DNA of 28,989 nucleotides from a virus (IMGVR_UViG_3300030419_004887:1-28989); one strand, 5' to 3'; shown: positions 2,303-28,228, counted from the stretch's first letter. Notes: generated by a model not told the origin, from the sequence alone. Translations and numbers: made by a program.

Positions 2303-2728
2303 ATGCCGGGAGCACAACAAAAAGATTTAGACCCTAACACTTATATTGGTTTATCTTTTCCAATACGAAGAGATGATAATAATGATTTTAAATTAACAAA
2401 AAATTCGTTAGAACAAGCGAAACATAATTTAAAAAATTTATTATTAACACATCCTGGTGAAAGAGTAGGACAACCTGAATTTGGTAGTAGATTACGAGAA
2501 ATTTGTTTTGAACCAATAGATTCTAACTTACCAACTAGAATAGAAGAAACAGTTAGGAAAGATATTTCAACTTGGTTACCGTATATTAATGTACAAGAAG
2601 TTAATACTCTTAATGAAGAAGGTGATGAAAATAAAATTTTTGTACAAATAAAATATTCTACAACATTAAATCCAACTACCTTAGAATCAATAACAGTAGA
2701 CGCGTCTTATACCGCCACTAGATATTAA
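2303..2728 (+). CDS. gp25: Baseplate wedge protein gp25 (W-lysozyme family)
   Basis: At 141 residues it is close to T4 gp25 in length. Diagnostic features are the NNLLLTHPGERVGQPEFGSRL-type core (here KNLLLTHPGERV then QPEFGSRLREICFEP, residues about 48-74) and the following RIEETVRKDISTWLPYI segment (about 80-96). gp25-family proteins sit in the conserved wedge core of contractile machines, including type VI secretion TssE, and contact gp6 and the sheath. The gene directly precedes gp6, the normal order. It starts immediately after the upstream stop without a strong ribosome site of its own, suggesting translational coupling. Confidence 0.92.
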   Translation: MPGAQQKDLDPNTYIGLSFPIRRDDNNDFKLTKNSLEQAKHNLKNLLLTHPGERVGQPEFGSRLREICFEPIDSNLPTRIEETVRKDISTWLPYINVQEVNTLNEEGDENKIFVQIKYSTTLNPTTLESITVDASYTATRY

Positions 2729-2741
2729 TTGGAGTAATTAA

Positions 2742-4727
2742 ATGGCAAGAACAAGTGTAAAAAAGAATATGGTAAAACAAGTTAATTATCTTAATAAAGA
2801 TTTTAGTGATTTTAGAGATAATTTGATTGAGTTTGCTAAAGTATATTTTCCAAACACATACAATGACTTTAATGAATCGTCACCTGGTATGATGTTTATT
2901 GAAATGGCGGCGTATGTAGGAGATGTACTTTCATATTATATTGATTCTTCATTTAGAGAATCACTTCTAGCATATGCTGAAGAAAAAAGAAATATTTATA
3001 CTATAGCTCAATCATTTGGTTATAAACCAAAAGTAACTTCACCAGCATCAGCTGTATTAGATGTATTTCAAAGTGTTCCAGCGTTAAATGAAAAACCAGA
3101 TATGAGATACGCATTAAATGTTAAAGCTGGAAGTACTGTTAACGCGTCAAGTACAGGTACAACATTTAGAATATTAGAGGATTGTAATTTTAACTTTTCA
3201 AGTTCATATGACCCACGTGAAGTTACAATATTAGAAAGTGATAGTGGAACTATAACTAAATTTTTATTGAAGAAAAAAGTAAAAGCTGAAAGTGGTGTTA
3301 TAGTAACAGAAAAATTTACATTTAGTTCAGCAGAAAAATATTCACAAATTAAATTAGCTAATTCAGACGTTATAGAAATAATTTCTTGTACTGATAGTGA
3401 TGGAAATAAATGGTATGAAGTTGATTCTTTAGCAAGAGATACAGTTTTTGAAGATATGGAAAGTAATACTTTAAATTCACCAGATTTAGTTGAAGATAGA
3501 GAAACAGTTCCATACATATTAAAACTTAAAAAAGTATCTCGTAGATTTACCACTTTTATTAATGAGAATGACCAAACAGTTTTAAGGTTTGGAGCTGGTA
3601 TATCAGATAATCCAGATGAAGAAATTATTCCAAACCCTGATATGGTTGGTTCTAATTTACCAGGTAGTCCATCTAAATTAACATCAGCGTTTGACCCAAG
3701 TAATTTTTTAAAAACAAAAGCTTTTGGTTTAGCTCCATCTAATACAACTCTTACAATTAAATATTCGTATGGTGGTGGTATAGATGATAATGTAAATTCA
3801 GGTGATATAGTTAACATATCAAGTATAAGTTATGATATACAAGACGCTTTACTATCGGCTGATACAGTACAAGATACCAAAGATTCTGTAGTTTTTACTA
3901 ATCCGAATCCAGCTACTGGTGGTTCATCTGGACAAACTATACGAGAAGTTCGTGAAAGTGCTTTAGCATATTATCAGTCTCAACAAAGGTCAGTTACTAA
4001 AGAAGATTATATTGTAAGAGCTTATTCATTACCACCAAAATATGGTAATATTGCGAAAGTTAATTTAGTACAAGATGACCAACTAAACAAATCCGCAGAA
4101 TCAATAGATTTAGATAGAAAAGTTACACTAAATGATGTTGAAGCTGGAAGAACAATTAGGTCATTTCAAACTGGAAGATTTTTAAATCCATTAGCAATGA
4201 ATATGTATACTTTAGGATATGATTCAAATAAAAAATTAACAAAAATGAATCAGACTAGTAAAGAAAACTTAAAAACTTATTTATCACAATTTAGATTAGC
4301 TACTGACGCTATAAATATAAAAGATGCATATGTTATTAACATATCTGTAAGTTTTGCGATATTAACAAAAGTTGGATTCAATAAAAATGATGTTCTTTTA
4401 AGATGTGTTTCTTCTGTTCAAGATTTCTTTGATATTGATAGATGGCAAATTGGCCAACCAATTGTTTTATCTGATATTGCATATGAACTATCATTAGTTG
4501 ATGGTGTAGCGTCTGTTGTTCCACCAGTTGGTTCTGATACTGTAATAAAAATTGAAAATAAATATAAATTGGAAGATGGTTACTCTGGTAATTTTTATGA
4601 TATAGATAGTGGGTTAATTGATGGTGTACTTTATCCTGCATTAGACCCAAGTATATTTGAAATAAAATATCCTAATTCAGATATTAAAGGTAAAGTTATT
4701 GGTGATAATCTAGGTATAACGGAGTAA
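2742..4727 (+). CDS. gp6: Baseplate wedge subunit gp6 (gpJ/TssF-like)
   Basis: This 661-residue protein matches T4 gp6 in size. The N-terminus carries the family signature: YLNKDFSDFRDNLIEFAKVY, then SSPGMMFIEMAAYVGDVLSYYID, then a helix ending YTIAQSFGYKP (residues about 10-95). The C-terminal half holds REVRESALAYYQSQQRSVTKEDYIVRAY (about 405-435), typical of gpJ-family proteins. gp6 dimers form the inner ring of the baseplate. GGAG lies 11-14 nt upstream of the ATG. A gap of only 4 nt separates it from the next gene. The long minus-strand frame at 3068-3817 is an antisense shadow. Confidence 0.93.
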   Translation: MARTSVKKNMVKQVNYLNKDFSDFRDNLIEFAKVYFPNTYNDFNESSPGMMFIEMAAYVGDVLSYYIDSSFRESLLAYAEEKRNIYTIAQSFGYKPKVTSPASAVLDVFQSVPALNEKPDMRYALNVKAGSTVNASSTGTTFRILEDCNFNFSSSYDPREVTILESDSGTITKFLLKKKVKAESGVIVTEKFTFSSAEKYSQIKLANSDVIEIISCTDSDGNKWYEVDSLARDTVFEDMESNTLNSPDLVEDRETVPYILKLKKVSRRFTTFINENDQTVLRFGAGISDNPDEEIIPNPDMVGSNLPGSPSKLTSAFDPSNFLKTKAFGLAPSNTTLTIKYSYGGGIDDNVNSGDIVNISSISYDIQDALLSADTVQDTKDSVVFTNPNPATGGSSGQTIREVRESALAYYQSQQRSVTKEDYIVRAYSLPPKYGNIAKVNLVQDDQLNKSAESIDLDRKVTLNDVEAGRTIRSFQTGRFLNPLAMNMYTLGYDSNKKLTKMNQTSKENLKTYLSQFRLATDAINIKDAYVINISVSFAILTKVGFNKNDVLLRCVSSVQDFFDIDRWQIGQPIVLSDIAYELSLVDGVASVVPPVGSDTVIKIENKYKLEDGYSGNFYDIDSGLIDGVLYPALDPSIFEIKYPNSDIKGKVIGDNLGITE

Positions 4728-16273: not shown

Positions 16274-16376
16274 CTATTTTTTCATAATATATATTATATT
16301 TATATAAGAATAAAGTCTACAAGCCTTTTAAGGCCTTAAAAGGTTACTTCTTTTGAAAAATATAACGGGGATATTT
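16274..16376 (+). promoter_or_regulatory. Promoter-like leader before the export-gene block
   Basis: This 103-base non-coding stretch separates virion genes from secreted-protein genes. It carries TATATTTATAT (16295-16305), the 11-mer also found before 513 and 28266, then the 20-nt palindrome (listed separately), then ACGGGG (16365-16370), the ribosome site for the ATG at 16377. A TTG at 16353 is in frame but lacks a ribosome site and would add eight residues before the signal peptide, so I reject it as the start. Confidence 0.5.
16324..16343. repeat. 20-nt perfect palindrome in the leader of the export block
   Basis: CCTTTTAAGGCCTTAAAAGG reads identically on both strands. A23-side bases extend pairing slightly (G-T then A-T). 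As RNA it can fold into an eight-base-pair hairpin with a GGCC loop. The T-rich stretch after it is weak (TTACTTCTTTT), so it may be a partial terminator, an operator-like protein site, or an mRNA 5' hairpin protecting the long transcript that follows. Confidence 0.6.
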
Positions 16377-19115
16377 ATGCGTAAATTGTTTATATACCTT
16401 TTGGTGATGATGATGGGAGTAGCTTATTCTCAAACACCTATTATCAGATTAATGCAATCAAGAGAGTATAAAACACCAAAATATTGGTGGAGAAACCAAG
16501 AGACATTTAAATTAAGAGGATACTTAGCAGACGATACTACAGGTATGTCTACATCCAATACAGCTTCAGGCGTTGCTTATATGAATAATAACTTTGACGC
16601 TTGGAGAGATTCAGTAATGACAGTTGCTGTTACACTTGATGGAAATGGAGCTAGTGTAACTGCGTTTCGTTTAGATATTATATTCGATAATGATATATTC
16701 ACTTGGGGAGATTCTACACGAGTAGAAAAGGGCTCTCATATAAGTAGTTGGACTGAGGGAGATGAAAATGCAGGAGCACATTATTCATATGAAGTAGTTC
16801 ATTATTCAGATGTTGGATATATAGATTCACTACAAACTGCTGGACAAGAAGTATCACAAGCAAATAATCGATACGATTGGTTGAGAATCACTATGGTATC
16901 ACATAATGGAAATAATAAATTATTTAGTGGTAATAGTGGTGAACAAAAAGAACTATTAAAATTACATTTTAGAGTTGGAGATGTAAATGATAATTTTCAA
17001 CCACAATCGTTTAGAGTAGCTACAAAATATAATGGTACTACAGGATATTATACTTATGTAACTAATGGAAATTATTTAACAACTTATAAAGTTTACATAG
17101 ATGGTAATTGGGGAGATGCTACTGTAGCACATAGAACATATAATGGTGGTGCTCGTGGTGATATAACTTTACATCCAAAGTTAGTTGATATTGAAGGATA
17201 CTTTAGATACGTTCAAGGACATAGTAGAGGACAAGGTGCTGCATTTAATACAGCACTTGAAAACACATATCCATATTGGAAAATAAAATTTGAGTTAGAC
17301 CAAAATTGGGGAACTAATAACGGAAGTAATTGGTATAATATTGAAACTGTTAGTCAAGTTTCAAGTTTAACTGATGAAGATAATTCTGATGATGTTATTG
17401 GAGACCATACGTCAACATTTTATTATGATAAGAAATCAACAACTGCGGCACAAGTATTACCTAAAGAGGGATTTCTTGGTATATCTTATTATGACTCAAC
17501 TTACACCGATGATAAAGGATACTATAGTATTCAGTTACCAAGAAACAATCATTATCGTATGTCATTTTGGCCACCAGACTCAAGTGATAATATAGAAACT
17601 CATAATCAGTTAGAATTAGATAGATATGCTATTACAAATGTAAATGACGCTATAGCATCATTTAATTTTCAATCTAATAAGTTTAAATCAGTAGTTGGTG
17701 TTGATACGTTAAATTCTATAGAATATTTTATTGGTGATGTAGATGGTGATGACTTCTTTCATTTAAATGACACTTATATATTATGGGCATATGTATCACA
17801 AATATTTGATAACTATACACACCATAATGGAAACTCATATGAAGATTGGTCTACTATAGATACACTACACGCGAGTGGTAATCCACAAGCGTATGGATAT
17901 TATCAAACTATAAATGGACAATCAAGACCACAAAGATATGAGTTTACAGTATTTGAAGATGATGATTTTAATCAAGCTCAAGCATTGACATTTGGTCAAA
18001 TAGAAGTTATAAATCCTTTGATGGATGATATAAAAACAGGTTTAGATACTATGAATTATGCAGTAGGTTCTGGAACATCTACTTGGCCAGTTAATAATCA
18101 AACAAACTTAATAACTTCAGCAAGACCAAATGATGTAAATCCTGATTATACTATTGATAGTTTAGCATATTTCTTTACAGGGGATATTAATACTACAGGA
18201 ACAAAAGTTCAAGAAAGTGGTGGTGATGGATATATTAATGTTAATGGTTCAACGTTTTATCGTTGGGGAAATGGAAACCCACCAAGTACTTATGCAAATA
18301 AAATTATGATGGATGGAAGTAATTCTGATGTACATCTTTCATTACCTGCAGATTCTACTGTAAGAGTTCAAAGTGGAGACCAAATAGAAGTTCCATTAAC
18401 TATTAAACCAAATCCAGGAATTAATATAGCGGGATTTGAATTTGAAGTAGAGTTTAAAACGGATGAGTTAGAATTTATAGATGTAAAAACTGATGTACTT
18501 CCAGGCCCTTGGATGACATATTTAAATGTTCACGAACCTGTCGGTGATTGGCAAAAAATATCATTTGGTGGAATGGATTATTCACCAGGTAACGCTCCAC
18601 AAACTTATTGGATTAATCAAGAAATAGTTGGATTAAAATTAATATTTAAAGCAGATTTTCCAGAAGCAGAATGGACTGAAGCACCAATAAGATTTGTTGG
18701 TAAACATGCCGCAGGTAATCCAAGTGGAAATGATTTATTAATGAGTAGAGATGATGGAATGATAATGGTATGGAACAAATATTGGATGTTTGGTGGTGGT
18801 AAACCAGACAATAGTGAAATAACTTATAATTATCCAAACCCATTTAAAGAAAATACAAAGTTTCAATTTTATTTAGAAGAACCAAAAGATGTTAAATTGT
18901 ATATTCTGAATAGTATGGGTCAAAGAGTTGCATCATTAATGGATGAACACGTGTTACCTGGTTTACACGTATATGATTTTACTAATAAACCAACAGCGTG
19001 GTTACCAGAAGTTTCAGTTTATGAAGGTCACAAAGAATTAGAACCTGGTGTTTATGTCTTTGTATTAGAAACCGATAGAAGAATTAAAGCTAACAAATTT
19101 ACGGTAATTAAATAA
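16377..19115 (+). CDS. Exported cargo with dockerin-like loops, cohesin-like domain and type IX sorting domain
   Basis: A 912-residue protein starting at the ATG preceded by ACGGGG. Residues 1-18 (MRKLFIYLLVMMMGVAYSQ-type) are a signal peptide. A beta-rich body follows. GDVDGDDFFHLNDTYIL at about 453-469 and GDINTTG...GDGYINVN at about 602-625 resemble calcium-binding dockerin loops. Residues about 650-790 (VQSGDQIEVPLTIKP, GFEFEVEFKTDELEF) look like a cohesin domain. Residues 818-912 open with NYPNPF and contain VKLYILNSMGQRV, LEPGVYVFVLE and a final KFTVIK: the type IX secretion C-terminal sorting domain of FCB bacteria. This is very unusual in a phage. It is probably anchored on or released from the host surface; actual function unknown. 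Confidence 0.8.
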   Translation: MRKLFIYLLVMMMGVAYSQTPIIRLMQSREYKTPKYWWRNQETFKLRGYLADDTTGMSTSNTASGVAYMNNNFDAWRDSVMTVAVTLDGNGASVTAFRLDIIFDNDIFTWGDSTRVEKGSHISSWTEGDENAGAHYSYEVVHYSDVGYIDSLQTAGQEVSQANNRYDWLRITMVSHNGNNKLFSGNSGEQKELLKLHFRVGDVNDNFQPQSFRVATKYNGTTGYYTYVTNGNYLTTYKVYIDGNWGDATVAHRTYNGGARGDITLHPKLVDIEGYFRYVQGHSRGQGAAFNTALENTYPYWKIKFELDQNWGTNNGSNWYNIETVSQVSSLTDEDNSDDVIGDHTSTFYYDKKSTTAAQVLPKEGFLGISYYDSTYTDDKGYYSIQLPRNNHYRMSFWPPDSSDNIETHNQLELDRYAITNVNDAIASFNFQSNKFKSVVGVDTLNSIEYFIGDVDGDDFFHLNDTYILWAYVSQIFDNYTHHNGNSYEDWSTIDTLHASGNPQAYGYYQTINGQSRPQRYEFTVFEDDDFNQAQALTFGQIEVINPLMDDIKTGLDTMNYAVGSGTSTWPVNNQTNLITSARPNDVNPDYTIDSLAYFFTGDINTTGTKVQESGGDGYINVNGSTFYRWGNGNPPSTYANKIMMDGSNSDVHLSLPADSTVRVQSGDQIEVPLTIKPNPGINIAGFEFEVEFKTDELEFIDVKTDVLPGPWMTYLNVHEPVGDWQKISFGGMDYSPGNAPQTYWINQEIVGLKLIFKADFPEAEWTEAPIRFVGKHAAGNPSGNDLLMSRDDGMIMVWNKYWMFGGGKPDNSEITYNYPNPFKENTKFQFYLEEPKDVKLYILNSMGQRVASLMDEHVLPGLHVYDFTNKPTAWLPEVSVYEGHKELEPGVYVFVLETDRRIKANKFTVIK

Positions 19116-19216
19116 TGGAAGAGTTACAATTTATATTAATTATAATATTTGCACTTCCAGTATTTTATTATTCTATTAAATTTATAGTTTGGTTGAGTGA
19201 GAAGATAGAGAAATGA
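19115..19216 (+). CDS. 33-aa membrane microprotein
   Basis: The ATG overlaps the stop of the cargo gene (TAATG). The peptide MEELQFILIIIFALPVF plus YYSIKFIVWLSEKIEK is one hydrophobic helix with charged ends, so a single-span inner-membrane microprotein is expected. Its stop overlaps the next start (ATGA). The chain of overlaps on both sides supports translation. A small membrane subunit or lysis-related peptide is possible; no homologue is recognised. Confidence 0.6.
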   Translation: MEELQFILIIIFALPVFYYSIKFIVWLSEKIEK

Positions 19217-19362
19217 GTGAATTAGAAATAAAAGAATATATAACTACTTTACCATTAGTACTTCAAGTAGTGTTTATGATGGGTTGGACTTTAGGTTCAG
19301 TAGTTGTTATGTTCGGAACACTAATTGGATTAGCTTGGATATTTAGGAGATTTGAGAAATGA
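19213..19362 (+). CDS. 49-aa membrane microprotein
   Basis: The start overlaps the preceding stop in ATGA, and its own stop overlaps the PorV-like gene start in ATGA. The protein opens with an acidic helix (MSELEIKEYITTL) followed by a long hydrophobic stretch (about residues 14-43) and ends with FRRFEK, giving a one- or two-span membrane protein with a basic cytoplasmic end. Sandwiched between two exported-protein genes with coupled translation, it may assist their membrane biogenesis or be a small holin-like peptide. Family not recognised. Confidence 0.62.
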   Translation: MSELEIKEYITTLPLVLQVVFMMGWTLGSVVVMFGTLIGLAWIFRRFEK

Positions 19363-20225
19363 AAAAGATACTATTAAGTTTATTATTAATAAGTTCTTTA
19401 TTTGGACAGATAAATAGAATGTTAACATTATCACCAACAGCTCAAGAAGCTAGTTTGGGTAATCAATCATTAGCATTTAGAAACCCAGCTCGTAACCTTT
19501 TTAATACAGATAGTACGATTAATTTAAGTTTTACGAGAGTGGATTGGTTGAGGAATATAACTGATGATATGGGATATAATCATATTTCAGCAGCGTGGAA
19601 AGATTTTACATTTAGTTTATTACATTTTGATTATGGTGCACAAAATCATACAGATGATACTGGTATTATTTTAGGTAGTTTTAGACCTAGTACTATAGTA
19701 GCTTATGTTGGTTGGGGAAATGAATTAAAATATAAGTCAAATAAAATAGAAAATGTAGCTGTCGGTTTTGGTGGTAAAATTATAAATCACATTTTACATA
19801 CAGATAAAGCAAATGGATATTTGTTTGACGCTGGTATTCACGTGAAACAATTATGGAACATAGTTGATTTAGATGTTATGATAAAGAATTGGGGTTTCGC
19901 TCCAAAACTTAATAATTATATAACTGAATTACCAACAAGTTTAAATACTGGATTTTCAGTACCAATAAAAGATTGGAAATTTTATAATCAATGGAATTTT
20001 TACAAAGGATATTATACTCACGGACAAGGTATTAGTTACAACTATAAAAATACTATTGTTGGTAGACTTGGATATTATAATGATATAGAACACGAATTAA
20101 ATTATTCTTCACTTGGATTAAGTTTTATATATGATAGATATGATATTGGTGTTGGATATATTATAGGTGGTGATATATTTCCTTTAAGTAACACTTTACA
20201 ATTAACAATAAACCTGGAGATATAA
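19359..20225 (+). CDS. PorV/PorQ-like outer-membrane beta-barrel protein
   Basis: This is a 288-residue protein. Residues 1-16 (MKKILLSLLLISSLFG, then Q) are a signal peptide. The mature N-terminus follows the PorV/PorQ (UPF0164-like) layout: AQEASLGNQSLAF, then RNPARNLF in place of the family's NPAG motif, then INLSFTRVDWLRNITDDMGYNHIS, then alternating strands such as FTFSLLHFDYG, VAVGFGGKII, LFDAGIHVK and a closing LGLSFIYDRYDIGVGYII. In T9SS, PorV receives cargo sorting domains and passes them to the surface sortase. Here it lies three genes from a sorting-domain cargo. At 288 residues it is shorter than most PorV and nearer PorQ. Function by analogy only. Confidence 0.68.
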   Translation: MKKILLSLLLISSLFGQINRMLTLSPTAQEASLGNQSLAFRNPARNLFNTDSTINLSFTRVDWLRNITDDMGYNHISAAWKDFTFSLLHFDYGAQNHTDDTGIILGSFRPSTIVAYVGWGNELKYKSNKIENVAVGFGGKIINHILHTDKANGYLFDAGIHVKQLWNIVDLDVMIKNWGFAPKLNNYITELPTSLNTGFSVPIKDWKFYNQWNFYKGYYTHGQGISYNYKNTIVGRLGYYNDIEHELNYSSLGLSFIYDRYDIGVGYIIGGDIFPLSNTLQLTINLEI

Positions 20226-20226
20226 A

Positions 20227-20619
20227 ATGGCAAAGAAAAAAGTCGTAGATGCTGAAGAAGCATTGGAAGGTATGAAAAATAAGAAGTTTGGATTATCTAT
20301 TCAAAATATTGTAGCTATTGTAACTTTCTTGTCAACTGTTATAGCTGGTTGGTATTCTTTTACAGGAAGAATCGATTCGTTGGAAGCAGTTGTAGAAGGT
20401 TTTGCAGAAGCAAGTGATATTGAATTAGTAACTTCTAAACTTGATGGGTATGATGAGGATATTAAATATCTTCGTGATAAAGTTGATAAACTCAAAAACC
20501 CAAAAGTTAAATCTTATGATGGTGATATTATCAAACTTGAAAATAAGATTGATAAATTAAATGGTGAGATTAAACGATTAGAAAAATTACTCAAAGACCC
20601 ATTAGCAGATTTTAAATAG
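20227..20619 (+). CDS. Single-span membrane protein with C-terminal coiled coil
   Basis: This is a 130-residue protein. A lysine-rich cytoplasmic N-terminus (MAKKKVVDAEEALEGMKNKK) precedes one membrane helix (about residues 24-46, IQNIVAIVTFLSTVIAGWY). The rest is charged, with heptad-like repeats (DKVDKLKN; IIKLENKIDKLNGEIKRLEKLL) predicting a coiled coil on the periplasmic side. This N-in/C-out layout resembles inner-membrane spanins, and the next gene encodes a lipoprotein, but that lipoprotein is CsgG-like rather than a small o-spanin. It could equally link the inner membrane to the outer-membrane proteins of this block. Ribosome site GGAGAT is at 20217-20222. Confidence 0.7.
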   Translation: MAKKKVVDAEEALEGMKNKKFGLSIQNIVAIVTFLSTVIAGWYSFTGRIDSLEAVVEGFAEASDIELVTSKLDGYDEDIKYLRDKVDKLKNPKVKSYDGDIIKLENKIDKLNGEIKRLEKLLKDPLADFK

Positions 20620-20628
20620 GAGATAACA

Positions 20629-21291
20629 ATGAAAAACCATTATCGTTTTATATTGTTTGTTGTTTTGGGATTTGTAATGTCTAATATAATTGGATGTGCC
20701 GCTTCCGTTCAAACAGAACAATATGTAGGTGAATATGAAAAAGAAAAATCTTTAGATGAAATCGTAGTAACTAAAGTTGATGGATTGAAACTTTATGATT
20801 TAAAATTCAATAAAGAATTAGAAGAAAGATATCCTGAGTTAGCAGATAAAAGAGTTTCTATGGGTCTTGTTCAAGAACTTCAGAATGTAATCTCTTATGT
20901 TGGTAGATTTAATTTAGTGGAAGCTGAAAGAGATATGCAACTTTTGATTATGAATGATTTGAGAGCAAATGATGCAAAGATAACAAAAGCTAAATATTCA
21001 GCAAGTGTTAGCATTTATGATTTCGCAGTAAATCTAAAAGAAGAAATAAAGGCAGGTAAGGTGGAGACTATCAATGAAACAATAGTTGGTATTCAAGTTA
21101 AGTTAATTAACAATGAGAATACACAATATGTTGTTGGTAGTGGACAAGGAAGAGCTTCAACTATAGGTAAAGGATTTCTTATGAATCCTAATATGGCTTG
21201 GAATCAATCTTCTTTAAGTTCCGCATCGAATAAAGCTATGGAGACAGCCGTAGTCAATGTTATAAAAGCAATTGACAGAAGAGGTTGGTAA
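20629..21291 (+). CDS. CsgG-like outer-membrane lipoprotein
   Basis: This 220-residue protein has a signal sequence ending in lipobox I20-I21-G22-C23. The mature part has the CsgG/curli-assembly pattern: DKRVSMGLVQELQNVISYVGRFNLVEAERDMQLL (about 75-108), AKYSASVSIYDFAVNL (about 122-137), GIQVKLINNENTQYVVGSGQGRAS (about 153-176) and a last helix SNKAMETAVVNVIKAI. CsgG forms the outer-membrane export channel for curli; related lipoproteins have other envelope roles. No curlin gene is seen here. AGGAG (20617-20621) is a strong ribosome site. Family call fairly secure, pore formation not shown. Confidence 0.68.
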   Translation: MKNHYRFILFVVLGFVMSNIIGCAASVQTEQYVGEYEKEKSLDEIVVTKVDGLKLYDLKFNKELEERYPELADKRVSMGLVQELQNVISYVGRFNLVEAERDMQLLIMNDLRANDAKITKAKYSASVSIYDFAVNLKEEIKAGKVETINETIVGIQVKLINNENTQYVVGSGQGRASTIGKGFLMNPNMAWNQSSLSSASNKAMETAVVNVIKAIDRRGW

Positions 21292-21296
21292 AATGA

Positions 21297-22289
21297 ATGA
21301 GGCAGAGGTTACTAAGTTTTTTATTTTTATTGAGTAGTATCTCTGCCCAATCGTTCTTTTATTCTTACATAGATCCTTGTGAACAAACTATAGTTCGCAC
21401 TAATGTCGCAATTGGTGGTAATGGTGAACAAGGATTTCAAGTAACTTATTACAATCAAACTAAATTTTTTACATTAGAAGAAGTATTGAATGGTGATTTA
21501 GAAAGATGGACACAATCTGTCTTTAATGATTTCGAAGATTTATTTCCTTGTGCAGTTAAAGTAGCTGAAGAAATATTATCTTCAGTAATTGCAGAAAATG
21601 TTAGTGAACAATTTAGTAAATCAGATGAAGATATCTCATCTACACCACAGCAGGTCAATTATGCAGTTCGTTCTTCTCCAGGCCCAGATTCTACTTGGAT
21701 AACTTCATTTAATAGTGTTTATACGGCTACAAGTTTTGATGGTAGTAAACGACACGATGGTAATTTTAATTTTACAAATGATTTTAGAAAAGGTTCTCTT
21801 ACATATGGACAAGGATTTAAGTTTAAAGCTAGAAAACAAAATGTAGTATGGAACGGAAGTGCTTTAGCATATAAAACATTTGAAGGTTGGGATTGGTTAA
21901 TATCAACTTCCTATGCAAAATCATTAATAAAAAAGAATACAGAAGCATTTGTTCTTACAGGTTCATATGGAAATGTTAGTGGTAATGAGTTTGGAAATTT
22001 AACAATGGTATATGGACAAAGATTTCCACTTGATTTAGGTCAAGTTAAAGTTAGTTTTTCTAATTATATTGCTTATACACTTATGAGGTATTATGAGGGT
22101 AATAATCCCGAAGACAGATATTTATTATTGAGGAGTCCGATTATCTTTTTTCCAACTCTATCAATGGATTGGAAATTAGGTACGGCTTTTACATTTAATT
22201 TAGGTGTTTCAATGGGATATAACACCGTAGTAAATGATTATGGGGAAAGAGATAAAACATTTAGTATATTATTTGGAACATATTTTTAG
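21297..22289 (+). CDS. Exported beta-barrel-like outer-membrane protein
   Basis: A 330-residue protein with a signal peptide (MRQRLLSFLFLLSSISAQ) followed by an N-terminal domain (about 19-125) with two cysteines (C28 and one near residue 84). Residues about 130-330 alternate short amphipathic strands and turns and end in FGTYF; a terminal Phe is typical of outer-membrane barrels recognised by BAM. The ATG at 21297 is chosen because the overlapping ATG at 21293 is in a frame that stops after 14 codons. It contains one of only two GATC sites in the window. It is flanked by two CsgG-like genes; perhaps a partner or receptor-masking protein. Family unknown. Confidence 0.68.
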   Translation: MRQRLLSFLFLLSSISAQSFFYSYIDPCEQTIVRTNVAIGGNGEQGFQVTYYNQTKFFTLEEVLNGDLERWTQSVFNDFEDLFPCAVKVAEEILSSVIAENVSEQFSKSDEDISSTPQQVNYAVRSSPGPDSTWITSFNSVYTATSFDGSKRHDGNFNFTNDFRKGSLTYGQGFKFKARKQNVVWNGSALAYKTFEGWDWLISTSYAKSLIKKNTEAFVLTGSYGNVSGNEFGNLTMVYGQRFPLDLGQVKVSFSNYIAYTLMRYYEGNNPEDRYLLLRSPIIFFPTLSMDWKLGTAFTFNLGVSMGYNTVVNDYGERDKTFSILFGTYF

Positions 22290-22298
22290 GAGTATAAT

Positions 22299-22964
22299 AT
22301 GATATTTGCAAAAAATGCATTACAAACTAAGGTTTTAAATTGGGGATTAAAATTAGGTATAATAGGAGTATTAGCAATTACAATGTGTAGTGTTGTTAAT
22401 GCTCAAAACACAGCAAATCCAGCTGAGATAGAAAGATTGAAATTAGAGGCTAAAACAAGACAAGAAAAAGTAAGAGAAGAAGCCAAAATAAATAATTTAC
22501 CAGTACCAGCTATTGTAGATGCTGATTTAATTAGACCAACATTAACTATATCTAAGTTTGTTGGAACAAGTGAGAATGTCGGTATAAAAGACGATAGAAT
22601 CACTATGGGAATACAACAACTATTACAAGAGGCATTTCAAGAATCAGATTATATTCTAACTGATGAGTCAGATGCTAACTTTACAGTATCGGCTGAAATA
22701 GTTTACATTGGTAGACCTAACGAAGCATTTAGTATTGTTGGTATATTCAATCGTAGAAAAACTAAAACACAAGTAAGATTGAATGTCTTGTTAACAGAGA
22801 ATGCTACAGGTAAAGTAACCACAAGTAGAGGTACAGGTGAGATTGATACAAAAGTATCCGCTACTGGTTTACAGATTGAAGAAGATGGTGTTCCCTTTAG
22901 TAATAGTGAATTAGGTGGAGCTTTAAGAAAAGCAATAGATGATGCAACGGAGAGTTTGAAATAG
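22299..22964 (+). CDS. Second exported CsgG/FlgO-like protein
   Basis: This is a 221-residue protein. A hydrophobic signal (about residues 16-36, LKLGIIGVLAITMCSVVNA then Q) precedes a charged helix (about 42-65). The remaining domain resembles CsgG-type folds: PTLTISKFVG, then ITMGIQQLLQEAFQESDYILTDESDANFTVSAEIVYIG, then TQVRLNVLLTENATGKV, TSRGTGEID and a final helix ALRKAIDDATESL. It lacks a convincing lipobox, so it is probably periplasmic, or held in the envelope through its N-terminus. Two CsgG-like proteins flanking a beta-barrel gene suggests a complex. A good AGGAG ribosome site is at 22289-22293. Confidence 0.6.
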   Translation: MIFAKNALQTKVLNWGLKLGIIGVLAITMCSVVNAQNTANPAEIERLKLEAKTRQEKVREEAKINNLPVPAIVDADLIRPTLTISKFVGTSENVGIKDDRITMGIQQLLQEAFQESDYILTDESDANFTVSAEIVYIGRPNEAFSIVGIFNRRKTKTQVRLNVLLTENATGKVTTSRGTGEIDTKVSATGLQIEEDGVPFSNSELGGALRKAIDDATESLK

Positions 22965-22965
22965 A

Positions 22966-23685
22966 ATGACTAAATCAACGTTATTAGGTATTGCATTAAA
23001 TGTTATATTTGTTTTATCTATTTTTGCAATACGATATAAATATGCTAAACAAGAATACGACTTTCTAAAAGAAGATAGTACAAGACAAGAACAACTTATA
23101 GTTAAAAATGAATCTTCAATTGATAGTATATCTACAGTTACGAGAAGATTACAGATAGATAATGATACTCAAGAACAACAACTAAAGAGATTATCTAAAG
23201 ATTTATATGATATAGTTCGTTGGAGTAAGGAATACGAACAAAGATTACAAAATTTAATTGATACTATAGATTCTATGAAGTTAGAATTATTAAGTTATGA
23301 GTCATCTACTGTTCCATTTTTACAGGAATTTGGAACGCAAGATAATTATATTAAAGTGTTCGGTAGAACTGGTTTACGGATTAGAGATAATAAAGTAGTA
23401 GAAGCTAAGACTATAGCAGACTTTGAAGGAGAAATTACTTTAGGTGCACCTCATATAGAGGAATTAAGTAAATTTAGATATAAAGCAGTTTATCCAGATA
23501 GACAAATTCTTGGTTTGACAATTAAGGGTGGTGAAAGTAAACCAATGCAAATAAAACCACCAAGAAACCAATTGTCTATAGGTCCAATGGTTGGAATTAC
23601 TTATAATAGTGATACAGGATTGACTAATCCAATATATGGATTTGGAGTAACTTATAATTTAGTTAAACTTTGGGATTGGAATTAA
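22966..23685 (+). CDS. Membrane-anchored coiled-coil protein, possible spanin-like
   Basis: This is a 239-residue protein. An N-terminal membrane helix (about 5-22) is followed by a long periplasmic coiled coil (about 30-112, rich in Q, E, K, L). Then come a small beta domain (about 115-190) and a C-terminal pair of strands, QLSIGPMVGITYN then PIYGFGVTYNLVKLW, that look like outer-membrane-inserting hairpins. Anchor, coiled coil and membrane-active C-terminus is the logic of unimolecular spanins, and proteins of this shape occur near lysis genes of Bacteroidota phages. A candidate holin lies about 1 kb downstream. No lysin is recognised in the window, so this is tentative. Confidence 0.55.
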   Translation: MTKSTLLGIALNVIFVLSIFAIRYKYAKQEYDFLKEDSTRQEQLIVKNESSIDSISTVTRRLQIDNDTQEQQLKRLSKDLYDIVRWSKEYEQRLQNLIDTIDSMKLELLSYESSTVPFLQEFGTQDNYIKVFGRTGLRIRDNKVVEAKTIADFEGEITLGAPHIEELSKFRYKAVYPDRQILGLTIKGGESKPMQIKPPRNQLSIGPMVGITYNSDTGLTNPIYGFGVTYNLVKLWDWN

Positions 23686-25478: not shown

Positions 25479-25892
25479 ATGAAAAAAATGTTAATGATAT
25501 TGTTGATGATTAGTTCATTAAGTGGACAATATGATGTAGTGAAAGAAAACAATCCTATAACAGATGCGGATTTCGTATCAAAAACAGCAAAAGGTTTTTC
25601 TGTAGTTGAATTTTGTGCAGGTTGGGCAGGTGTATGTAGTATTGATAACTTTATGGATATAGAGGGACATAAAGGTACAAAGATATTTCACGCAGATACA
25701 AAAGATGCACCTAAAGAAACACGTAAAAATAAATTGAGAACATTTCCATCGGTAGTTTTATATAAAGATGGTAAACCTATTGCAAAATGGAAAGCAAGTA
25801 TAGATGGTAAGAATGTGGTTACTTCAAGAGATATAAAATCTAAGATAGATAACCCACCACCACCACGAAGAAGAAGAGCGAGGACAAAATAA
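25479..25892 (+). CDS. Exported thioredoxin-fold protein lacking the CXXC pair
   Basis: This 137-residue protein has a signal peptide ending SSLSGQ (about 1-17). The fold signature is clear: FSVVEFCAGWAGVCS (about 40-54) in place of VVxFWAxWCGPC, a central HADTKD strand, and the cis-proline loop TFPSVVLYKDGK (88-99). The normal WCGPC is WAGVC (A50, C53), so the nucleophile position is lost; C46 sits seven residues earlier, giving an unusual C-x6-C pair. The C-terminus is PPPPRRRRARTK. It may act as a chaperone or binding protein rather than an oxidoreductase. Its stop overlaps the next start (TAATG). Confidence 0.72.
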   Translation: MKKMLMILLMISSLSGQYDVVKENNPITDADFVSKTAKGFSVVEFCAGWAGVCSIDNFMDIEGHKGTKIFHADTKDAPKETRKNKLRTFPSVVLYKDGKPIAKWKASIDGKNVVTSRDIKSKIDNPPPPRRRRARTK

Positions 25893-26091: not shown

Positions 26092-27074
26092 TGTTTGTTT
26101 GTGTAGTAGAAGTAAATAATAAAAAAATTAGATTAATTTTTCCACACAAATGTGGTTCTAGCACTTTCAGTAATTTGATTCGAAGTGGATATTTTGATGT
26201 TCCACTTATATCAACAAACGACATGGATACTCCCACCGAAGAAATTCATGTGTATGGTAGGAATCCATACAGAAAAGCAATATCTAGCTTTTTTCAAATG
26301 AAACTTATGTCAGACAGAAACATAGATAAAGATTTTTTAGATAAAATAGAAAAAGGTTTAGATTATGGTGAAAGGCCAACAGATGAGAAGGTTGATGAAT
26401 TTAGAAATTTCATCAGTAAAACCAAAAAGGTATGGGAACAATATGGTCTTATAGAAAATCACACAAAAGACTTTCCTGCAGAATTAGGAGTACATTACAA
26501 CCATATAAAATCAACATGTGTGGATATATTTGGTTGTGTTTGGAAAAATGGAGAATATGATCCTTTCAATATACCAAAACACATGGAGGAGATAAAGGAT
26601 GAAATAATTTTTTATCAACTTGAAGATGTAAGAAGTAATTTTATACTCAAGAATCATTGGAAAAAATCTACGGATTCCTTCAAACCATTCGATGACTTTG
26701 GTGATTACTTGGATAAGTATAAAGCGATGAGGCAAGATACAGACCAAGATAGATATCAACACCATGTGTATTACAATAGTACAAATATGCTTAGAAAATC
26801 TCCGTATCACATTTTTTACGATGAGGAAACCATGAGGTCGGTCAATTGGATGTTTGAGATAGATTTCAAATTTTTTAATTATCCTAAGTGTAAGTCTATA
26901 TATGATATAAAAAAATTTACAGGAGATAAAATAAATGCCAAATGGGAAAAAGAAAAAGAGATATTGCCATCAGGACATGAATGGAAAATATCAAAATTTA
27001 CAAGGTCTCATAAAAAATATTTAGCTAAACAAGCTGAAAAAGGAACACAAGTTCCAGTTTGGGGAAGAAGATAG
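26091..27074 (+). CDS. Sulfotransferase-like protein (inserted gene)
   Basis: This is a 327-residue protein. The N-terminal LIFPHKCGSSTFSNL (17-30) matches the PAPS 5'-phosphosulfate loop of sulfotransferases (PKxGSTSx form), and YGRNPYRKAISSFF (55-68) matches the 3'-phosphate binding motif (RxPxxxxxSxf). No signal peptide, so it is cytoplasmic; it could sulfate a host surface glycan, lipid or phage glycan. Its last 22 residues are encoded by the duplicated end of the 50-aa gene, so the native C-terminus was replaced. The codon run includes GATC (26559-26562), otherwise almost absent here. It ends TAGTG, overlapping the next gene. Ribosome site GAGGAG. Confidence 0.7.
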   Translation: MFVCVVEVNNKKIRLIFPHKCGSSTFSNLIRSGYFDVPLISTNDMDTPTEEIHVYGRNPYRKAISSFFQMKLMSDRNIDKDFLDKIEKGLDYGERPTDEKVDEFRNFISKTKKVWEQYGLIENHTKDFPAELGVHYNHIKSTCVDIFGCVWKNGEYDPFNIPKHMEEIKDEIIFYQLEDVRSNFILKNHWKKSTDSFKPFDDFGDYLDKYKAMRQDTDQDRYQHHVYYNSTNMLRKSPYHIFYDEETMRSVNWMFEIDFKFFNYPKCKSIYDIKKFTGDKINAKWEKEKEILPSGHEWKISKFTRSHKKYLAKQAEKGTQVPVWGRR

Positions 27075-27100
27075 TGGTTAATCTAAAAGATTTACTTGAA
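27009..27100 (+). repeat. 92-bp exact direct repeat, right copy
   Basis: Exact copy of 25979-26070. Here it encodes the C-terminal 22 residues of the sulfotransferase-like protein and the first nine codons of the PAP2-fusion protein. Length and position over a gene junction fit duplication of that junction by recombination rather than transposase target-site duplication, which is normally far shorter. Confidence 0.95.
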
Positions 27101-28228
27101 ATAAGAAATATGAAATATAGGGAAACTCCTAAAGAAAAGCATGTTAAAAGAATGACTATGGAGACACCTAACTTTGCGGATGTAATACTTCCTACTAATC
27201 CACCACATGATAATGATAGTAGAGAAACTTTGGGTGAATTAAAATATTTACAAACATTAGAAACTGATAAAGATTTCGTTAAAAAACACGATGATGTTGT
27301 AAAAGTTTTTGTTGAGTTATTAAAAGAATTTGAAGTTCATACATTACAAAGAGAAGAAGTGATAGAAGCATTAGTAGACCAATCACGCAAATTCATAATG
27401 ACAGCAAAATATAAATATAATAGACCAAGACCATATCAAGTTGCAGAGTTTTATGATATAAATTTAAATGGTACTCAATTAGATAGTATGAAAACACCGA
27501 GTTATCCAAGTGGGCACGCCACACAAGGTTACTTAATAGCAGAAGTATTAAAGAGTATGATACCACATATAGCTCCCGAATTAAATAGAGTTGCGGAAGA
27601 TATAGCTAATTCAAGAATAATAGCTAAAGCACATTTCCCATCAGACAAAGCATTTGGAAAAAAAGTAGCAAAAATTATATATAGAGGATTTAGAAAATCA
27701 TTATCAGAAGCAATTAAAATAGATGTAAATGTTGGTGATACAATTCTTACAGGTAGATTTAAAAATAAAAAGACTAAAGTTAAAAGTATTGGTAAAGACG
27801 AACATGGAATGCCAACTATCAATGGTAGAAAAGTTGTTACATTCAGAATGCCAAAACTAAAAGAATTAATTGAAAGAGTTGATTTTGTTGATACTGCACA
27901 ACAAATTATAAAACAACAAGGATTGAAATCTAAAGTAAAAGTTCAAGCAGGTTCTAATAAAGCAGATTATAATTGGAAAAAAGATATTATATATATAAGA
28001 CCACATTATGCAACTATGAAAGATTTTCTAACTACCATATATCACGAAATAGACCATGCTAAAGATAGAAAAAAGTATGGTGCAAAAACATATGAAAAGA
28101 AATATCAAAGAGCAGGAGATATTGCAGTAAATCAAGGTAAAGATTTCCACGATGACAATAAATACGAAGAAAAAGCTGAAAGATATGGTAGAAAAATGGC
28201 AGCCTTACATATGAGGAAAATAAAATAG
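27074..28228 (+). CDS. PAP2/haloperoxidase-type phosphatase fused to a C-terminal HExxH domain
   Basis: A 384-residue protein from the GTG overlapping the previous TAG, with GGGGAAG (27061-27067) as ribosome site; a TTG five codons earlier is less likely. All three PAP2 acid-phosphatase motifs are intact: K112-x6-R119-P120, P145-S-G-H148 and S180-R181-x5-H187-x3-D191. A basic linker (about 215-260) contains VNVGDTILTGRFKNK and GKDEHGMPTINGRKV, a phrase common at the ends of marine-phage proteins. The C-terminal domain has TIYHEIDHAKD, with HEIDH at 324-328, a zinc-peptidase motif. No membrane segments, so a soluble phosphatase. Substrate unknown. Confidence 0.8.
   Translation: MVNLKDLLEIRNMKYRETPKEKHVKRMTMETPNFADVILPTNPPHDNDSRETLGELKYLQTLETDKDFVKKHDDVVKVFVELLKEFEVHTLQREEVIEALVDQSRKFIMTAKYKYNRPRPYQVAEFYDINLNGTQLDSMKTPSYPSGHATQGYLIAEVLKSMIPHIAPELNRVAEDIANSRIIAKAHFPSDKAFGKKVAKIIYRGFRKSLSEAIKIDVNVGDTILTGRFKNKKTKVKSIGKDEHGMPTINGRKVVTFRMPKLKELIERVDFVDTAQQIIKQQGLKSKVKVQAGSNKADYNWKKDIIYIRPHYATMKDFLTTIYHEIDHAKDRKKYGAKTYEKKYQRAGDIAVNQGKDFHDDNKYEEKAERYGRKMAALHMRKIK

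Follow-up and report, generated by a model that had tools for sequence, protein, structure and literature searches.

Does a bacteriophage encode both a protein addressed to the type IX secretion system (T9SS) of its host and an outer membrane carrier for that protein? The question is raised by positions 16377-20225 of IMGVR_UViG_3300030419_004887:1-28989, a single virus record of 28,989 bases that is probably a fragment and is referred to here, over its whole length, as the window. An earlier interpretation made from the DNA alone (the sequence-only reading) had placed there a phage-supplied module for surface display or secretion that makes use of the host T9SS, with a 912-residue cargo and a 288-residue PorV-like partner, and both open reading frames (ORFs) were found where it had put them (16377-19115 and 19359-20225). 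We found that cargo and carrier are real, adjacent, and conserved, and that such a module is the best-supported reading of the locus. The accompanying claim that no phage example had been described did not stand: a 2020 report describes T9SS cargo proteins of Cryophage (Nat Commun; PMC7468147), and one of 2019 describes T9SS sorting domains near gut-phage BACON proteins (PMC6949934). Phage-encoded T9SS cargo is thus already known, and the paired phage PorV-family carrier would be the new element; such a pairing was not found in a literature search outside subscription papers and preprints.

The window belongs to a contractile-tailed phage, as marked by baseplate wedge proteins at 2303-4727 (PHROG 261, 6, and others). 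Scans of viral contigs returned 32 loci with the cargo as query, 37 with a neighboring lipoprotein, and 36 with a PorV alignment, whereas the lone 288-residue protein of the window returned no match as a query; 46 contigs were tabulated together. No match was obtained by tblastn of the cargo, the barrel, and a 330-residue module protein against an annotated phage collection, nor by tRNA and Rfam searches.

The cargo gene starts at ATG 16377 and, like all module genes and leader elements described below, lies on the plus strand. Its product comprises a signal peptide (MRKLFIYLLVMMMGVAYSQ), an N-terminal region, a dockerin-like segment, a cohesin domain, and a type A sorting domain. By eye, the signal peptide is of the Sec type, with a hydrophobic N terminus ending in AYSQ; it is kept in the aligned relatives and present in nearly all aligned cargos. 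The sorting domain (18828-19112; residues 818-912) runs from NYPNPF through LEPGVY to KFTVIK and matches TIGR04183, for which the curated cut-off is 23 bits. The window cargo scored 19.2 bits (E 8.8e-4), under the cut-off, in a single-protein scan and 24.2 bits, over it, in a whole-record scan. The model was matched by 12/12 aligned cargos and exceeded its cut-off in all 12 records searched, namely 11/11 related viral contigs and the cultured Flavobacterium phage immuto (NC_055915). Because the relatives score over the cut-off, the doubt left by the single scores of the window was settled. Furthermore, 23 other cargo tails were 59-80% identical to that of the window, with N.PNPF, LEPGVY, and KFT invariant. 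Judged by sequence model, the cargo carries a T9SS type A (TIGR04183) sorting domain at the curated score. The predicted signal peptide and C-terminal domain (CTD) were thus both borne out, and the possibility of an unrelated Ig fold with no sorting-domain match was contradicted by the TIGR04183 matches. The cohesin domain (18327-18776; residues ~651-800) was supported by Pfam PF00963, which matched residues 661-706 over the Pfam cut-off (E 1.5e-5) and was found in 12 of 12 aligned cargos, and by alignment with immuto gp015. Besides the CTD, about 800 cargo residues are kept among the aligned relatives, many of them at invariant positions.

The second protein (19359-20225) was identified by family model, profile, and predicted fold as a PorV/PorQ-family outer membrane beta-barrel and a candidate carrier for the cargo. 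It matched NF033709 (PorV_fam) with an E value of 5.9e-21 and 75.4 bits, against a cut-off of 90, and the carriers of several relatives at the same gene place exceeded that cut-off (91-98 bits). In a profile search of PDB sequences, the sole significant match was the PorV chain of a solved translocon (1.1e-7). A structure prediction built from 28 sequences (predicted local distance difference test score [pLDDT] 72) had as its top PDB matches PorV with bound RemA CTD (8gl6_F, E 1.9e-10) and 6h3i_F, followed by FadL (3e-7), with Z-scores of 21.9, 21.7, and 20.6, respectively. The model thus has a FadL-type barrel fold with an N-terminal NPA motif. That motif had been read as RNPARN replacing NPAG; NPAR is in fact the FadL/PorV-type NPA motif itself, with P43 and A44 invariant in the alignment. 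As had been proposed, the protein is PorV/PorQ-like, and the suggestion that it might match a generic porin only was contradicted by the PorV-family models and by the ranking of PorV structures ahead of generic porins. Scores against the equivalog models were far under their cut-offs (38.8 bits against 250 for PorV NF033710, 46.3 bits against 220 for PorQ NF033711), and in a tree the phage carriers grouped as a single clade (99/99) whose branch was long; a long-branch warning applied, and the tree could not assign the clade to PorV or PorQ. Since scores and tree make it neither PorV nor PorQ proper, the carrier is filed on sequence and model as a barrel of the PorV/PorQ family only. A genome-collection scan with the PorV query found no cellular relative, and a PorV search of 396 Flavobacteriales genomes returned cellular PorV/PorQ-like proteins at 1e-10 to 1e-15.

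The pair proved to be a fixed arrangement. Cargo followed by carrier was found in 43 IMG/VR contigs, with the carrier starting 0-241 nucleotides (nt) past the cargo stop and within 12 nt of it in 19 of the 43; two contigs with one module gene and no partner begin or end within the module. The sequence-only reading had counted the carrier four genes on; it is three, with two small membrane ORFs intervening in the window. One encodes 33 residues (19115-19216) and has homologues in many, not all, module phages; the other encodes 49 residues (19213-19362) and was found in one other locus only (L065) among those tabulated. Across the relatives the order is tail genes, cargo, small membrane proteins, PorV-like barrel, coiled-coil protein, lipoprotein, and then proteins of 330, 221, and 239 residues, with some extra small genes interspersed, and the module stands just behind the baseplate and tail genes both in the window and in its relatives. 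The pair within 16377-20225 therefore stood, whereas a module end at 20225 did not, for the module extends to about 22964 or 23685.

We next considered the sequence ahead of the cargo gene. A probable phage promoter motif, TATATTTAT, lies at 16295-16303, its function being suggested by its recurrence ahead of genes. Five plus-strand copies occur in the window, four of which (444, 476, 16295, and 28247) lie in gaps right before genes; in an 83-kb relative, 6/6 among the matches listed were directly ahead of genes, and an identical or similar A/T-rich motif was present 5′ of the cargo in 14/14 relatives listed. Because TATATTTAT precedes the cargo and other genes in both the window phage and a related phage, its position, judged by eye, suggests a separate promoter for the module. 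The cargo-gene leader also contains a perfect 20-nt palindrome, CCTTTTAAGGCCTTAAAAGG (16324-16343), and by eye many relatives have a hairpin of other sequence at its place with similar flanks. The palindrome could be a structured leader or a terminator.

Downstream of the carrier, five further genes complete the module. A 130-residue protein (20227-20619), which combines a single membrane segment with a coiled coil, is conserved in the module and gave weak matches only, to spanin and other coiled-coil families. It is followed by a 220-residue lipoprotein with lipobox Cys23 (20629-21291), 71-97% identical among relatives and 28% identical to its homologue in immuto (E 3e-24). Its low-confidence model (pLDDT 57) had CsgG as top Foldseek match (E 8e-5); the best Z-score was 9.8, and LptE, PelC, and Cj1090c scored similarly. 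This tentatively points to a CsgG/PelC/LptE-like fold; Pfam and NCBIfam scans found no CsgG family match. The 330-residue protein (21297-22289), conserved in relatives, bears what by eye is a signal peptide, along with a conserved YSYIDPC motif, is probably located in the outer membrane, and had no family match in the Pfam and NCBIfam scans. The 221-residue exported protein (22299-22964) corresponds to immuto gp019 and aligned with the 220-residue lipoprotein (hhalign E 6e-7, probability 92), of which it is probably a distant paralogue. At the module edge, a 239-residue protein of conserved order (22966-23685) has an N-terminal membrane segment and a coiled coil and is a possible spanin; its match to TIGR03495 (LysB-like; E 1e-4) was far under the cut-off. 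In three loci (L014, L028, and L031), an additional gene of ~313 residues lies between the 221- and 239-residue genes.

Beyond the module, the window encodes at 25479-25892 an exported thioredoxin-like protein whose TIGR01068 match (1.6e-4) was far under the cut-off and which lacks CxxC in its active-site region, where the sequence is AGVCS; in immuto a thioredoxin-domain gene likewise lies directly after the module. By eye, a 389-residue protein (27059-28228) joins a PAP2-phosphatase-like portion to a metallopeptidase-like one (YHEIDHAK); many relatives encode the two as separate genes.

A diverged form of the module was found in immuto. There gp015 contains a cohesin and a sorting domain, each over its curated cut-off, and aligns with the C-terminal third of the window cargo (hhalign E 5.7e-8), and gp017, gp018, and gp019 match the lipoprotein, 330-residue, and 221-residue genes in order (profile E 4e-32, 2e-8, and 3e-14). 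Immuto gp013-gp019 thus resembles the window in having a cohesin and sorting-domain cargo followed by the same three relatives in the same order. Unlike the window, the whole immuto genome has no PorV-family gene, and its cargo is shorter and annotated merely as a cohesin domain-containing protein. The immuto module lies near 11-16 kb, and the homologue of a 1,481-residue tail-region protein of the window lies at 86 kb. Because ~70 kb separate the two, the module is separable from the virion genes and forms its own unit. Directly 5′ of the immuto cargo (4788-6950 of L042; gp013 and gp014) are genes for a C-type lectin protein and a second exported protein. A dockerin-like stretch of gp013 weakly resembles residues 447-481 of the window cargo (hhalign E 0.05), and matches of the cargo N terminus to gp013 and gp014 were below significance.

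As for the host, a CTD scan of the genome collection returned a phage contig within a Flavobacteriales metagenome-assembled genome (MAG) and four weak Bacteroidota matches. The contig (L124, binned in MAG NAT55) is a fragment of a module phage, and its binning, which may be wrong, probably reflects either contamination or a host link. Keeping that doubt about the binning, the same MAG encodes a PorV_fam protein scoring 432.9 bits. A lipoprotein search in the 396 Flavobacteriales genomes matched only this MAG-binned contig. Shine-Dalgarno use was 34-44% in module phages, compared with 2% for immuto and 19% for the MAG holding the module contig, which argues against a typical Flavobacterium host and names no host. 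That these phages are marine is a guess.

We then compared the module with known systems. Cryophage likewise encodes type A sorting-domain proteins, proposed to hijack the host system; the accessible text of that report describes three variable cargos (endoglucanase, GH39, and PA14) and mentions no phage carrier (PMC7468147). The window phage, by contrast, and its relatives combine one conserved cargo per contig with a PorV-family protein of their own and a fixed set of envelope genes. In cellular systems, PorV takes up type A CTDs from SprA, whereas a type B cargo gene usually lies directly 5′ of the gene for a dedicated shuttle on which secretion depends (PMC12618676). The Flavobacterium johnsoniae pairs of a type B CTD cargo and SprF-PorP resemble the window in that a cargo gene is followed by a dedicated outer membrane shuttle gene, and differ in that a type B CTD is paired with SprF rather than, in a phage, a type A CTD with a PorV/PorQ-family protein (PMC12618676). 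Pelagimyophages and phage Melnitz, with CsgG/CsgF genes, also carry phage-borne outer membrane secretion parts, and the window lipoprotein may, by its model, share the CsgG fold with their proteins, although the window has no Pfam or NCBIfam CsgG match; the accessible parts of those reports mention no T9SS parts (PMC7029224, PMC9004378).

What, then, would the module do? We think it rather probable that the phage displays its cargo on the infected cell through the host T9SS, using its own PorV-like shuttle. One transcription unit of a contractile-tailed phage would make a large surface protein together with much of the apparatus that installs it. The cargo would cross the inner membrane by Sec and pass the outer membrane through the host SprA translocon, and the phage shuttle would take it off, instead of or beside host PorV. 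At the surface it may be held by the barrel, the co-encoded lipoprotein, and the outer membrane protein, and, judging from its cohesin and dockerin-like segments, the displayed proteins may adhere to each other or to a different surface protein. The likeliest benefit would be an altered infected-cell surface, giving superinfection exclusion or cell-cell adhesion, probably late in infection; this purpose is a guess. A more specific version, in which the T9SS serves as a private display route for one conserved cargo with a dedicated PorV-family shuttle and CsgG-like lipoproteins anchoring a cohesin/dockerin-linked coat, is possible and more doubtful; we know of no type A cargo/shuttle gene pair elsewhere.

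Several points weigh against surface display by a phage shuttle. In the single-protein scan the window cargo and carrier both scored under their cut-offs, the fold match separates PorV from FadL only modestly (Z 21.9 versus 20.6), and SprA is assumed in the host. In immuto the cargo gene has no phage PorV partner, so a phage carrier is not needed everywhere. Moreover, type A cargos normally share a single host PorV, which makes a private shuttle unexpected.

The same two proteins would suffice for another purpose: as a decoy, the phage barrel and the CTD protein would occupy the host T9SS, so that surface proteins of the host, for example phage receptors, are no longer displayed. The PorV-family membership of the barrel suits this idea, and roles in interstrain competition or superinfection have likewise been proposed for Cryophage cargo (PMC7468147). 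For a decoy, however, the CTD alone would do, yet the ~800 other residues are kept, and additional envelope genes accompany the pair; we therefore regard a decoy as unlikely. Those envelope genes, with a CsgG-like top match and an adjoining possible spanin, could instead form a lysis or release module in which the lipoprotein and barrels permeabilize the outer membrane late in infection and the cargo is accessory, much as a CsgGF pinholin has been proposed for phage Melnitz (PMC9004378). This gives no reason why a PorV-family protein should accompany a 912-residue T9SS cargo in 43 contigs, leans on a low-confidence lipoprotein model, and must accommodate a 205-residue protein, by eye lysozyme-type endolysin-like, ~50 kb away in the relative G003. 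A lysis function seems to us distinctly unlikely.

The position of the module directly behind the baseplate and tail genes would fit a virion protein, the cargo, with its Ig-like tail, being a fiber or baseplate decoration and the barrel a generic FadL-type channel. Nearly all cargos have a signal peptide, however, and their sorting-domain model scores over the cut-off; neither cargo nor barrel had a PHROG match, the immuto module is far from the tail-region gene, and PorV ranks ahead of FadL. We hold a virion role to be very improbable. The window is a single, probably fragmentary record, so an assembly artefact joining phage and bacterial DNA was also considered. Because the same order recurs in 43 diverse contigs, and because the complete genome of a cultured phage holds a related module, the feared misassembly of virion and export genes was excluded, its probability being practically negligible.

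If surface display through the host T9SS is the right reading, phages both tag a protein for the host system and supply its carrier. The carrier step would then be worth controlling, and type A cargo could have private shuttles. It would also provide a named module for infected-cell surface remodeling by phages of T9SS-bearing bacteria. The cultured immuto offers a laboratory entry to a diverged form of this module, which in itself marks a phage lineage.

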